Part shown: positions 1,181 to 33,975 of the stretch, in pieces
Layout of the letters: each line of letters begins with the position of its first letter
Position numbering within the stretch: position 1 is the first letter of the stretch
Source: Alcaligenes aquatilis
GTDB taxonomy: Bacteria; Pseudomonadota; Gammaproteobacteria; Burkholderiales; Burkholderiaceae_B
Length of the DNA stretch: 64,000 nt
NCBI RefSeq assembly: GCF_003076515.1
Contig: NZ_CP022390.1
Span: 3,721,642-3,785,641 of the forward strand
Reading direction: 5' to 3'
Notes under the pieces: model-generated
Seen by the model: only the letters and a program-made list of their open reading frames with translations
The model's database searches: none
Told to the model about the DNA's origin: nothing
Position numbers and translations under genes: made by a program

Positions 1181-4100
1181 TTAAAACGCCCAGCGCAGAT
1201 TCATCTGCCCTTGTAGCGACGAATATCCACCGCCGAACTGTGAGCTGATGCCGGTGCCAATCGACAGACGCTCACTGCGTTGCCAGGTCAGGCCTGCACG
1301 CAGACTCATCGTGTCGCGGGGCAGCACGCTATTGCGGGTGTTGAACGCCGTCTCCGTGGACGCAATGGCGAAACGGGCTGCTTGGGTCAGGTCGCGATCC
1401 AGCCATTCGTGATTCCAGCCCACGTCAACGTTCACGGCCAGCTTACTGCCATCAGTCAGGTCGCGATTCCATTGCGCCGTCAGCCCCAGGCTGGAGCGCA
1501 AGGCATCGACGCGCTTGCTGTCCAGGTGAAGGCGCGTGGCTGCATTACCCGATTCGTCGACTGATGGCCGGGACACCAAGGCATAGTTCATGTTGGCAAA
1601 GGGGCCTAGCGATAAGGAGGGGTTCAGCTCCCAAAGGTAGCCTGTGCCTGCGTCAATCGACAGATTGCGCCCCGTCCAGTCAGACGAGTGCGTGGCCTGA
1701 TAGTCTCCAATGGCAATTTGCCTGCGCATATCGGCTTGTTCTAGCCCCAGTCGCAGCCCGCTGAATCCAAAAAGGCCTTCCCGTGCACCGGGGCGGTATT
1801 GCAGATGGGCAGCCAAGCCAAATGCGGTGGCTTTGCTCTTGCCGGAGTACGGGGCATCCGGTTTGACCGATAGATCTGAAATATCAAGCTGTGCTCCCAC
1901 CGCGAAGTCGGGGGCCGACTCCAGGGCGCGCCCAGCTCCGACGATCAGGCCATAGCTGTTGGCATCGTAGCCAAGCATGGAACCTCGCGTGTTCTGATCG
2001 CCACTGGAACCGAACACCAAGGCGTAGCCCTGCCAGTCGGTGCCGGGCCGCAACATGCTTTGGCTCAGTCCTTGGCGCGCGGTTTGCATGATCGAACGCT
2101 CATGCATCAGAGAGGCGGCCATCGCCGCACTGTAGCCAGCCGGTGAAATCTGATCCAGGGCAGCGGGTATTTGTGAGCCGTCCTTGGCCGAGAAGTCGAG
2201 TTCCTGGAACAGGGTTTGCGCGGGTGCCGGTGCGGCGGCGGCCAGCTTGACCAAAGCCTTGCCGGCTTCTCGTTGGTTGTCGTCGCCGCCATATTGGCTA
2301 TAGGCATTGTCGGCGCGGGTGGCAGACAAGCGGTAGCGTTCATTGCCTAAAGGGGCAGCGTCAAACTGCAAGGTAGGCGATACGGGGGCGATCTGGGTGG
2401 CGTTGAAGCTGCCGCTGTAGCTGGCGGCTTCTACAAATGAGCCTGTGTCGACGGACCAGGCGTTTTGATACCAGTCCGCCACGGGCGTCAGTTGCAGCGT
2501 TCCGGCCAAATCGGCATGACCACTGACGGCAAGTGCGTCGTGATCGCCTTTACCATCAAATTCGGCTAATAGGCGGCCCGTTGCTGTTTGTTGGAAGTCG
2601 CCATTTACCTGAATGCGCCCGACTGAGTTACCAGGCGTCAGGGTGCCGGCGTTAATCAGGGCCTGACCGCTGGCCAGATCGAAGCGGGCATTGCCGCCCA
2701 ATGTCGCCGCTTCGTGGATGGCGGCACTGTGGACCTGCACGTTACCGTTCAGTTGTGTCGTACCGCCGTCAAATGACAGGGTCAGATTGTCTTTGCCTGT
2801 GATGTTCCCGGCGTAGCTCAAGTGAAAGTTGGTATCGGCTTGATCGATGCTGCGGCCCCTATGATCGGCAGCCTGCCCAAACGACAGCGTAGTCAGACGT
2901 AGCTGGTTCTGGTCGTCGCGTTGCGCATACTGCGAGATGATATCGCCTTCAATCTGGGTGCCCTGCATCAGGTTGATGCGCCCGACGTAGGCATTGTCAG
3001 AAATCAGGATGGCAGCTTCCTGGCCTGCGATCCGCCCGCTAATGTCGGCTTGTTTAACCAGGGGGCCGTTCAGCTCGGGGAGCAGGGCTTGATCGACGCC
3101 TTCAATACTGCGTATATAGGAACCACGACGCTCGGTATGGTTGCCCAGGGAGTTGGTGCCAAAGTCAAAACGCAGGCCGACACCTTGAGGGCCAGTAGCC
3201 TGGATGTCGCCGCGATGCACCAGCGTATGCCCACGGCCGTAGGCAAATTGAATACCTTGCCCGTTCAAGCCATCTGCGTAGATTCTGACGCCTGGGTCGA
3301 TAACAAGCGTGTTGTTCTGACCATCGACCCGTATGCCTGCACCACCTGAGCCGGCTGCCAGCAGGTCAGCCGCTTGTCGGACCTGATTGTTGCTGCCGTA
3401 GATATGCAGGCCCAGACCCAGTGTGGATTGGTTGTATTGGCCTGGAAGGTACTGCGTGCCTTTGGCATTACGGGCAAAGAAGCCTTGGGTATTGACCAGC
3501 TCAAGGCCATCGCCGTAGATTGAGCGCCCAAAGAAGTTGGCCCGGTCAATGGTGTAGCCCAGATCTTGCAGTACTGCCAATTCAGCTTCCATGAAGCCTG
3601 AATAGTTGCGGTAGTTCTGGTGGCTCATGACGCTGTTTTGAAGCTCGATATGGCTCATGAAGTTGTTGTCTATGCCGCCACCTTCACCCAGCATCTTTAC
3701 GGGCACACCACGCAGGCCACCAGCCAGCACTTGTTCGATGTGCGTTCCGGTCAGATAGCCCTTGTCCTGACGCACATCAAAAGCGTCGGGGTCGTAGGAG
3801 TTGTCGCAGCCATCGCACAGAATCTTCTGGCCAGCGCGTGCCGGTTTGCCATTGTCGTCTCTTAGCAGTTGGGTCCAGCTACTGAGTTGGCTTTCAAAGT
3901 AGGGTTGGGTCTCATCCAAACTGCCTCTGTCCTCCACGCTGCTTAAAATGCCCAGCCCATGGGCAATTTCGTGAACGGCTGTCAGCAGTACGCTGTCTTT
4001 TCCGCTAAGGGGAGTTTGTGTAAACGCCTGGTTTGCTGCGTAATCGTCTTGGCCCAGGCCAAAAAAGCCATGTCCACCAAAGGGCAGTGTGCCGGTTGCA

Positions 4101-4480
4101 GGCGACAGGCCGAACATGTTTTGCTGCATCTGCGTCAGTGCGCTTTGACCGCCATTGGCGGTGGGCGAGCCTCCGTAGGCATTGCCCGGGTCATTAATCG
4201 TGCCGATATTGACGATGGTCGCAGGGTTGTCGCCTTGGGGCTGCAATATTTCAGCCCAATAGCCCATGCCTTCAAGGAGCTGTTCTTTATAGGCTTGATG
4301 GCCCTCCCAGCTCCAGAATGACGTTTCGTCATTGTCGAATGAACCGTCGTTCATATCGAAAAACCGTGCGATAAACACGGTGCGCCCCGCTGCATTTGTA
4401 ACGGTTCTGTCTTCCAGGGCATGAGCTGCCAGGGGCGCAATAGCAAGCGCCAGGGCGGTATACAGTTTTGTTAGTTTCAT
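1181..4480 (-). CDS. Autotransporter with N-terminal zinc-metallopeptidase motif
   Basis: A type V secreted surface protein of 1,099 residues. Residues 1-21 are a Sec signal peptide (MKLTKLYTALALAIAPLAA). Residues about 24-330 form a globular domain with HEIAHGLGIL at 170, the zinc-binding HExxH of metallopeptidases, plus a CDGC pair about 65 residues further on. Residues about 340-790 are Gly/Asn-rich and repetitive, as in a beta-helix passenger. The last 280 or so residues look like the outer-membrane autotransporter barrel and end NLRWAF with the expected terminal Phe. ATG 4480 was chosen because the signal peptide begins there; an upstream in-frame GTG at 4519 adds 13 residues. The gene stands alone, flanked by two repeat B copies. 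The third zinc ligand is not evident, so protease activity is inferred. Confidence 0.85.
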   Translation of the reverse strand: MKLTKLYTALALAIAPLAAHALEDRTVTNAAGRTVFIARFFDMNDGSFDNDETSFWSWEGHQAYKEQLLEGMGYWAEILQPQGDNPATIVNIGTINDPGNAYGGSPTANGGQSALTQMQQNMFGLSPATGTLPFGGHGFFGLGQDDYAANQAFTQTPLSGKDSVLLTAVHEIAHGLGILSSVEDRGSLDETQPYFESQLSSWTQLLRDDNGKPARAGQKILCDGCDNSYDPDAFDVRQDKGYLTGTHIEQVLAGGLRGVPVKMLGEGGGIDNNFMSHIELQNSVMSHQNYRNYSGFMEAELAVLQDLGYTIDRANFFGRSIYGDGLELVNTQGFFARNAKGTQYLPGQYNQSTLGLGLHIYGSNNQVRQAADLLAAGSGGAGIRVDGQNNTLVIDPGVRIYADGLNGQGIQFAYGRGHTLVHRGDIQATGPQGVGLRFDFGTNSLGNHTERRGSYIRSIEGVDQALLPELNGPLVKQADISGRIAGQEAAILISDNAYVGRINLMQGTQIEGDIISQYAQRDDQNQLRLTTLSFGQAADHRGRSIDQADTNFHLSYAGNITGKDNLTLSFDGGTTQLNGNVQVHSAAIHEAATLGGNARFDLASGQALINAGTLTPGNSVGRIQVNGDFQQTATGRLLAEFDGKGDHDALAVSGHADLAGTLQLTPVADWYQNAWSVDTGSFVEAASYSGSFNATQIAPVSPTLQFDAAPLGNERYRLSATRADNAYSQYGGDDNQREAGKALVKLAAAAPAPAQTLFQELDFSAKDGSQIPAALDQISPAGYSAAMAASLMHERSIMQTARQGLSQSMLRPGTDWQGYALVFGSSGDQNTRGSMLGYDANSYGLIVGAGRALESAPDFAVGAQLDISDLSVKPDAPYSGKSKATAFGLAAHLQYRPGAREGLFGFSGLRLGLEQADMRRQIAIGDYQATHSSDWTGRNLSIDAGTGYLWELNPSLSLGPFANMNYALVSRPSVDESGNAATRLHLDSKRVDALRSSLGLTAQWNRDLTDGSKLAVNVDVGWNHEWLDRDLTQAARFAIASTETAFNTRNSVLPRDTMSLRAGLTWQRSERLSIGTGISSQFGGGYSSLQGQMNLRWAF

Positions 4481-4809
4481 TGTTGAGCAGGTGTTGAATG
4501 CGCGAGATATTGTTTGCACTGAATGGCCCCTGAGGTAGAGGAAACAGTTTGATTAGCGTGGGGCGTTCATTGTTGCTGCATCGGGGCTGGCGGATGAAAG
4601 GGATTCCTTCGGCCTGCGTCGGGAAAATATAACAGATGGTGTCAAATAGATATTGTTGGTTTTAAACCTTTGGCCCTCCTTTTTAAACGCGGGGTATCTG
4701 CTTTTTTCGAATTTCGAATTTTTGGCTTAGGGGTGAGGTAAGGGAGCGTTTTTTGGGACGGCGTGCTTTTGGGCGTGCCGTTTGCGCTTTGCATGGTGGC
4801 GGTGGATGG

Positions 4810-4918
4810 TTTTCTTGTGCGGCCCGGGTTCGGCTTGTCTTGGCGGGTCCCTTGCCCACGCTGTCCGCGGCAAGAGCCCTGACTCGCCCGCCAAGCTGTA
4901 CCCGGTTCCACAAGAAAA
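4810..4918 (+). repeat. Palindromic repeat family B, copy 2 (compact)
   Basis: This is a complete stem-loop element. The outer arms are TTTTCTTGTG (4810-4819) and CACAAGAAAA (4909-4918). The middle arms are CTTGGCGGG and CCCGCCAAG, and the inner arms are CTTGCC and GGCAAG. It shares a 24-base exact block with copy 1 downstream of the same autotransporter gene. The two copies are direct repeats relative to each other. Confidence 0.75.
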
Positions 4919-5030
4919 CAAGCAACACGGTTTAAAGCCCAAACGGCACTGCAGAGGGGAGTCAAAGGTGGAGCCTAAGATCGGATGGTTGGAGAAAGTA
5001 AGGGAGGGGGAGGGTAAAAAGCCATTGTGA

Positions 5031-5268
5031 GCCGTTCAGTCGGCCTGCTGGGGTGTAGGGGCGGATCAGAGTACTTGCCGCGGTCAGGAGATAGCGTAGG
5101 GGTGTAAGCATCCTGCTGTTTGAGCGGGGCGCTTGTGGTTCGTCCGGGGGACGAACCACCCCGCGAGTTCAGGATGCGCCCGTAGCTATCTCCTGATAAG
5201 GGCACCGGTGCGTAGCACCGGCAAGTGCTCAGCCCCGACACCCCAGCAGGCCGACTGAATGGCGTCTT
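5031..5268 (+). repeat. Structured palindromic element family A, copy 1
   Basis: A multi-stem palindrome of about 233 bases. The outer 26-bp stem runs from GCCGTTCAGTCGG (5031) to CCGACTGAATGGC (5263) with one G-T pair. Inside it are GAGTACTTGCCG (5069-5080) with CGGCAAGTGCTC (5219-5230), TCAGGAGATAGC (5084-5095) with GCTATCTCCTGA (5185-5196), GCATCCTG with CAGGATGC, and a terminal hairpin GTGGTTCGTC/GACGAACCAC (5135-5159). A GGCGTCTTT follows the outer stem. It is homologous to 33738-33975: the loops are conserved and the stem arms are replaced. Confidence 0.85.
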
Positions 5269-33737: not shown

Positions 33738-33975
33738 GCCGCTTGGAGCCCTGTCAGGGTGTCGGGGCGATTCAGAGTACTTGCCGCGGTCGGTTCTGAA
33801 ATCCGGGATGCAAGCCCTGTGTTGTTTGAGCGGGGCGTTTGTGGTTCGTCCGGGGGACGAGCCACCCCGCGAGTTCACAGGGCGCCCGGATTTCAGAACT
33901 GACAAGGGCACCGGCGCGCAGCACCGGCAAGTGCTCAGCCCGGACACCCTGACAGGGCTCCAAGCGGCGTCTTTT
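33738..33975 (+). repeat. Structured palindromic element family A, copy 2
   Basis: Homologue of 5031-5268 and of nearly the same length. The outer 26-bp stem, GCCGCTTGGAGCC (33738) with GGCTCCAAGCGGC (33968), is perfect. GAGTACTTGCCG (33775-33786) pairs with CGGCAAGTGCTC (33925-33936), keeping the same T-G mismatch as copy 1. The variable arms are GTTCTGAAATCCGGG (33793-33807) and CCCGGATTTCAGAAC (33885-33899). GCCCTGTG pairs with CACAGGGC. The terminal hairpin is GTGGTTCGTC/GACGAGCCAC (33841-33865). GGCGTCTTTTT follows the outer stem. Confidence 0.85.

Follow-up and report, generated by a model that had tools for sequence, protein, structure and literature searches.

Introduction

The closest described systems are dispersed palindromic repeats. 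According to PMC3733652, the REP sequences, with their BIME and REPIN arrangements and RAYT genes, are dispersed, extragenic and palindromic, lie mostly 3′ of genes and form dimers in opposite orientation. The TIR families of TIRYT genes (Di Nocera et al. 2013) share the opposite orientation and the 3′ location according to the same paper; they are longer dimeric repeats, of which some, e.g. in Stenotrophomonas, are self-complementary (PMC3733652). ERIC-like palindromic MITEs are described there as intergenic, non-coding sequences of 70–300 bp (PMC3733652). Further papers on known relatives were also considered (PMC8632094, PMC2267715, PMC12306157, PMC2817692).

In the present work, we examine a palindromic element of Alcaligenes that lies in a window of 64 kb, by which we mean the whole stretch of DNA that was analysed. 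While REPs are simple palindromes of 20–40 bp with a GTAG or CGTC tag, the monomer of this element measures about 200–260 nt and comprises several helices, its internal loops being conserved and its stems free to vary; by its length it is not a REP. The ERIC-like MITEs keep one conserved sequence along their arms, whereas the arms of the element, which is likewise intergenic, hairpin-forming and non-coding, vary freely with compensation. Strong covariation and conserved loops are features that it has in common with the structured RNA families of Rfam 15, but neither the window nor any of 27 further loci scored above a gathering threshold there, and a single listed hit was at chance level, with 16.6 bits where the threshold is 168. 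A search of open-licence papers, by sequence strings and by words, did not find the repeat family described either.

We will show that the element occurs in many copies with covarying stems, is under selection on one strand, pairs head to head and is located 3′ of genes, that it has spread recently in one genome, and that in Alcaligenes it is retained at fixed loci and exchanges modules. The explanation that we favor, with a confidence that stops just short of even, is a dispersed element that resembles REPs and BIMEs but is of a new and much larger type and acts via a folded transcript, where the RNA action and the mode of spreading are the inferred parts.

Fold and copies in the window

An earlier reading of the sequence alone (below, the sequence-only reading) had described copy 1 as a multi-stem palindrome with an outer stem, a middle stem, a terminal hairpin and a T-rich end, and had compared it with copy 2. 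The palindrome is real. Its arms at 5031–5068 and 5226–5263 (38 nt) are 89% complementary, and the predicted RNA fold has an energy of −169.3 kcal mol−1 (z = −14.6), with none of 200 shuffles equally low. For copy 2, the arms of 31 nt are 97% complementary and the z value is −13.1, again with 0 of 200 shuffles reaching the same level. The similarity between the two copies is 82% across 152 nt and 86% across 42 nt, and the conserved blocks and the swapped yet complementary stem arms are as they had been described.

The stems and the hairpin listed in that reading all exist, and the fold has more parts than these. Overall, it forms a long hairpin that is interrupted by internal loops and bears a single side hairpin, and it comprises the outer stem P1, P2 (GAGTACTTGCC/GGCAAGTGCTC), P3, P4, P5, P6 and the apical P7 (the labels are our own and follow the predicted fold). 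The T-rich end, on the other hand, is weak in copy 1 (GGCGTCTTTACAGAG). By eye, no consistent T-run follows 22 full or partial copies, nor 40 copies of the genomes G049 and G041, and an intrinsic terminator, in which a T-run comes immediately after a G+C-rich hairpin, was therefore discarded. As regards the unpaired GTAG or CGTC tag of REPs, many Alcaligenes copies end in GGCGTCTT, which contains CGTC; the copies of G049 end in CTTAAGAAC and those of G041 close to GGGGCTAGAAGG.

The features are collected in Table 1. The sequence-only reading had missed two relatives in the window, as well as the fact that copies often form head-to-head pairs. The relative nearest to copy 1 has lost the inner stems. 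Compared with stretches that overlap or adjoin the minus-strand model matches at 3698935, 3673724 and 3722534, it shows 92% identity over 59 nt and 81–84% over 70–75 nt. It was not reported by the covariance model R1, and the first consensus pattern made for it gave zero matches. An open reading frame of 1112 aa at 1181–4519 (−), presumably an autotransporter, is flanked by two minus-strand relatives of the element.

Table 1. Position, strand and basis of the element copies and their parts in the window.
Feature	Position	Strand	Basis
Element copy 1	5031–5268	+	Arms, genome search and fold; top covariance-model match of the window, 191.2 bits
Outer stem P1, 5′ arm; sequence specific to the locus	5031–5061	+	RNA fold; partner at about 5232–5263
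P1 outer stem, 3′ arm	5232–5263	+	RNA fold
Structured core, region modelled by R1	5066–5233	+	Model match 3726707–3726874 in own genome (G000)
P4, 5′ arm TCAGGAGATAGC	5084–5095	+	Fold, pairs with 5185–5196; swapped as a module in other copies
P7 apical hairpin GTGGTTCGTCC-GGG-GGACGAACCAC	5135–5159	+	Sequence and fold
P3 hairpin ACCGGTGC-GTA-GCACCGG, on the 3′ side	5204–5221	+	Sequence and fold
Copy with an internal deletion, which probably forms a head-to-head pair with copy 1	4805–4920	−	DNA similarity
Diverged element copy	893–1060	−	R1 match 3722534–3722701, 97.8 bits, E 4.5e-18
Element copy 2	33738–33975	+	R1 core match 33772–33939; orthologous place occupied in other Alcaligenes species

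Covariation and selection on one strand

Nineteen full copies of the own genome were aligned, both at full length (A1) and over the core (A2). A1 has 52 invariant columns, many of them in or beside the internal-loop blocks, among which GATGCAAG, TGTTTGAG, GAGTT and GACAAGGG are conserved. In the 19-copy alignment, 64 of 84 stem pairs change on both sides. The covariation score is 0.605, compared to 0.181 (sd 0.010) in shuffled alignments and at most 0.127 with the partners slid, and 93.8% of the cells are paired (72.0% in shuffles). Loss of complementarity in the arms of further copies would have spoken against the sequence-only reading; the arms of most copies have kept it. Some copies are decayed or partial.

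It is important to point out that a DNA palindrome would likewise keep its arms complementary, and the mismatches inside the stems were therefore counted. The aligner weighs G–T and A–C mismatches equally, and the strand is the one that reads TTTGAG...GAGTT. With 123 elements, 249 G–T and 54 A–C mismatches were found. A set of 212 Alcaligenaceae elements (106 from Alcaligenes, 38 from other genera, 35 from named stretches, 16 from G049 and 17 from G041) gave 421 versus 80, and 319 versus 80 when recurrent mismatch positions were dropped; orthologous copies are non-independent in these tests, as also in the stem counts at orthologous loci given below. The class-wide relatives contribute just two usable elements (3 versus 2), which is too few to tell anything.

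Since copies lie in both genome orientations, a bias of the replication strands should cancel, and the bias thus follows the element and not the replicon. The excess of G–T over A–C on one strand means therefore that selection sees a folded single strand, and upkeep of a symmetric palindrome alone is disfavored by the asymmetry. As far as mismatch counts can tell, RNA would be the simplest candidate for the strand that is kept folded, and it could also be single-stranded DNA. The interior G–T cells amount to ca 2.4% of the Watson–Crick cells, a share that is higher in typical RNA and that would suit single-stranded DNA as well. The sequence-only reading had left the choice between a structured RNA and a protein-recognised mobile palindrome. 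The one-strand fold speaks for RNA or single-stranded DNA rather than for a double-stranded palindrome that is recognised by its symmetry. Spread is also visible in G049 (see below).

Distribution

Further copies, whose absence from related genomes would have spoken against the sequence-only reading, were found both in the own genome and in related ones. In the own genome, a single contig of 3.84 Mb, the DNA search led to 28 places, some of them only arms or fragments, and the R1 core model to 25 matches, 21 of which exceed 140 bits. The relatives sample, which includes the own genome, comprises 121 genomes from 91 genera, and R1 matches are present in 37 of these genomes and 21 of the genera; at most 23 candidates were scored per genome, and the copy counts are thus lower bounds. 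The highest counts are 56 (G041), 44 (G033) and 30 (G049). In the own genus, 9 of 10 genomes have a match, and in the remaining one (G005) a match to the mobA-like gene (E 1e-30) is also absent.

A general pattern run across 84,980 species genomes hit 57 stretches, every one in Alcaligenaceae, the family of Alcaligenes: in Alcaligenes itself, Paralcaligenes, Pusillimonas, Parapusillimonas, Pollutimonas, Candidimonas and others. In the order-wide sample, R1 matches occur in 4 of 399 genomes (own included), which are those of the own family and G343 only. A second model, R2, built from 74 diverse copies, matches 26 further genomes of the 368 in the class-wide sample; these matches are weaker, come from many families and are often multi-copy, and the loops are the same as in the Alcaligenaceae forms. 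In both samples at most seven candidates were scored per genome, so that copy counts are again lower bounds.

Most of the class-wide relatives whose sequences were inspected (L334–L361) carry an additional hairpin on the 3′ side of the core, which is A+T-rich and of the type CTTTCTTTGGTTACTTTCTTTG...CAAAGAAAGTAAC. This hairpin also occurs at six places of the Ilyobacter polytropus megaplasmid without the core; the one place inspected there has no core match. In Variovorax paradoxus, a dimer whose two copies enclose a further, weak match of 18.8 bits lies on a 2.5-Mb replicon classed among plasmids, and nothing is annotated beneath it. Searches of plasmids and phages for the Alcaligenaceae forms gave zero matches, and three viral contigs that matched loose patterns gave no model match.

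Head-to-head pairs and gene context

We now turn to the arrangement of the copies. Neighbors less than 1 kb apart in the own genome are minus-then-plus in 5 of 5 cases, i.e. with their 5′ ends facing, and the same head-to-head order is found in 14 of 14 cases in the 57 named stretches, in 19 of 19 at 60 Alcaligenes loci (some of which were picked for holding two copies) and in 16 of 18 at the class-wide loci. The two exceptions, one plus-then-minus and one plus-plus, both lie inside a five-copy cluster of G628. The claim on orientation rests on the own genome, the class-wide loci and the named stretches, among which orthologous places are shared. The spacers measured between paired copies are 49–530 nt, and in view of these short distances a gene carried between the facing copies was rejected. 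Larger gaps of about 1 kb were also seen. At L074:1667–2655 (G010), a minus and a plus copy enclose two small open reading frames, which resemble an antitoxin and a RelE/ParE-type toxin, and further such gaps between facing copies occur at L342 and L356.

Clusters are mostly single (114 of 143), a count made with a regular expression that may miss diverged partners; some of these have a decayed partner, as in the window. Of 118 clusters with genes on both sides, 56 lie in convergent, 54 in tandem and 8 in divergent gaps. This count uses crude gene calls (longest open frames) and leaves aside 25 of the 143 clusters, which have no neighbor on one side; it combines three overlapping sets, so that some places occur twice, and some loci were fetched as apparent pairs. 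The element is thus extragenic, situated mainly 3′ of genes and dimeric in opposite orientation, as are REP/BIME-like dispersed dimers. In tandem contexts, 21 single copies have the same and 25 the opposite orientation, so that neither is preferred.

Spread, fixed loci and module exchange

The 20 copies fetched from G049 differ in 3.9% of their paired cells, yet their flanks differ. Near-identical copies in different flanks show that the element has spread, and recently so, within this one genome. Paired two-base switches occur in both P4 arms of these copies, with one intermediate. On the 5′ side of many of them (L160–L179) lies a leader that is conserved only loosely, contains units of the type CGCAGGCCTGCGATCGCCCAAAAAA and is sometimes doubled. 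Beside many G041 copies (flanks of L180–L199), small palindromes such as GCCACCCACAAGGGGTGGCGCTAC recur that resemble GTAG-type REPs, and short tandem repeats (TACTGGC, CTT, GTCTTT, TTGGCT and GTT units) adjoin several Alcaligenes copies (L017, L020, L021, L097, L105).

The sampled Alcaligenes copies form 40 groups, of which 26 occur in at least two species; in two of these, several places are lumped together. For P1 at these orthologous loci we count 234 double Watson–Crick changes, 217 G–T, 48 A–C and 212 other-mismatch cells, and 173, 182, 41 and 158, respectively, in the 24 groups left without the merged ones, where it should be noted that the ratios use the RNAalifold structure, which favors G–U, while the strand tests above do not. 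The flanks of the orthologous loci differ at 21.7% of the positions. The other-mismatch cells (212), together with the decayed and partial copies, count against the explanation that we favor.

Species differ at the pirin locus in P4–P7, the inner module, which has one form in G000 and G002 and another in G003, G006 and G007, with the P1 stem unchanged, and at another orthologous locus the inner module is exchanged likewise. Such exchange between copies, which the sequence-only reading had missed, explains part of the concerted change. In species without a copy at the mobA or the pirin locus, the flanks differ too, and a sharp empty site, from which a target-site duplication as in MITEs could be read, was not found. 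Upstream of the mobA-like gene, where the window has two copies, L116 (G007), L117 (G006) and L120 (G008) have a gene pair, presumably a toxin–antitoxin of the VapC/Phd type, and in L120 a partial element copy lies beside it.

Alternative explanations

The favored explanation can be put as follows. The element would work through its folded single strand, most likely as RNA in the 3′ regions of genes, and the fixed internal loops would be bound by a common factor, which may be an RNase, an RNA-binding protein or the transcription machinery. A head-to-head pair would give one sense copy to transcripts arriving from either side. The spread would be that of a REP/BIME-like non-autonomous element, with an enzyme possibly helping in trans. 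Observations that count against it are the lack of a promoter-like block common to the 5′ flanks, the lack of an orientation preference in tandem contexts and the low share of interior G–T cells.

The most serious competitor, which we consider somewhat doubtful, is a non-autonomous mobile element whose single-stranded-DNA hairpin would be recognised by a HUH (Y1)-like transposase, as in the REP/RAYT or TIR systems; the pairs would then be the transposing dimer and the Alcaligenes copies its relics. The opposite-orientation dimers and the 3′ location are those reported for the REP and TIR families in PMC3733652, and the one-strand selection and the recent amplification in G049 fit as well. However, REP/RAYT systems have a Y1 transposase, whereas Y1_Tnp, the only family tested, has no match in any of 10 Alcaligenes genomes, and a RAYT/Y1 partner was therefore rejected for the genus. 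No copy was found in the fetched flanks of 39 Y1_Tnp loci, though only 5 of these come from known carrier genomes (G059, G010, G028, G032 and G063). Old copies at fixed loci, moreover, still keep their pairing. At these loci the element differs from the TIR families, some of which may nevertheless be the same as it or include a class-wide relative. Another enzyme considered as a partner was a reverse transcriptase. RVT_1 is present in other carriers, e.g. G004, G006, G007 and G049, but was not found in seven (G000–G003, G008, G009 and G010), and such a partner was rejected on this basis.

Another option, in our judgement an unlikely one, is that each copy is a small-RNA gene in its own right, so that a pair would hold two of them, both transcribed outwards from the spacer, and that their products bind one and the same protein. 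The facing 5′ ends of the head-to-head pairs, the conserved internal loops, the one-strand selection and the retention at orthologous loci would all be expected of such genes. Against this, inspection by eye of the 5′ flanks in the 25 groups (of 40) with a recognised 5′ end gave no common promoter-like block, the clusters are mostly single, with the caveat on diverged partners given above, and the terminator T-run is inconsistent.

Finally, upkeep at the DNA level, in which template switching (reportedly able to maintain hairpins, according to one study) and gene conversion would keep the arms complementary without selection on the fold, could account for the concerted multi-base changes in both arms of otherwise near-identical copies and for the whole inner modules exchanged at orthologous loci, but it should be strand-symmetric and would yield neither G–T mismatches at 4–5 times the number of A–C nor strongly conserved internal loops, and we regard it as very improbable.

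Conclusions

The palindromes dispersed in bacterial genomes are short as a rule and are assessed by their sequence, while the present family is much larger and held together by its fold. Because the stems are the most variable part and are kept complementary by compensation, repeat tools that work on sequence would tend to miss it. The asymmetry between the strands makes an old question testable, namely whether such a palindrome is a DNA site or an RNA element, and the orthologous copies with exchanged modules constitute a natural experiment on the way in which pairing is maintained in long hairpins.

On a wider scale, one can conceive of mobile elements of structured RNA (or of single-stranded DNA) that form an ancient class across the beta- and gammaproteobacteria, in which selfish-looking dimers were recruited as bidirectional RNA devices of 3′ regions; a host factor would read nothing but the fold and a few bases in the internal loops, which would leave the stems free to vary. 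We put this forward as a conjecture, possible rather than probable. If the elements do act on transcripts, the carrier genomes would hold up to dozens of undescribed 3′-region elements.
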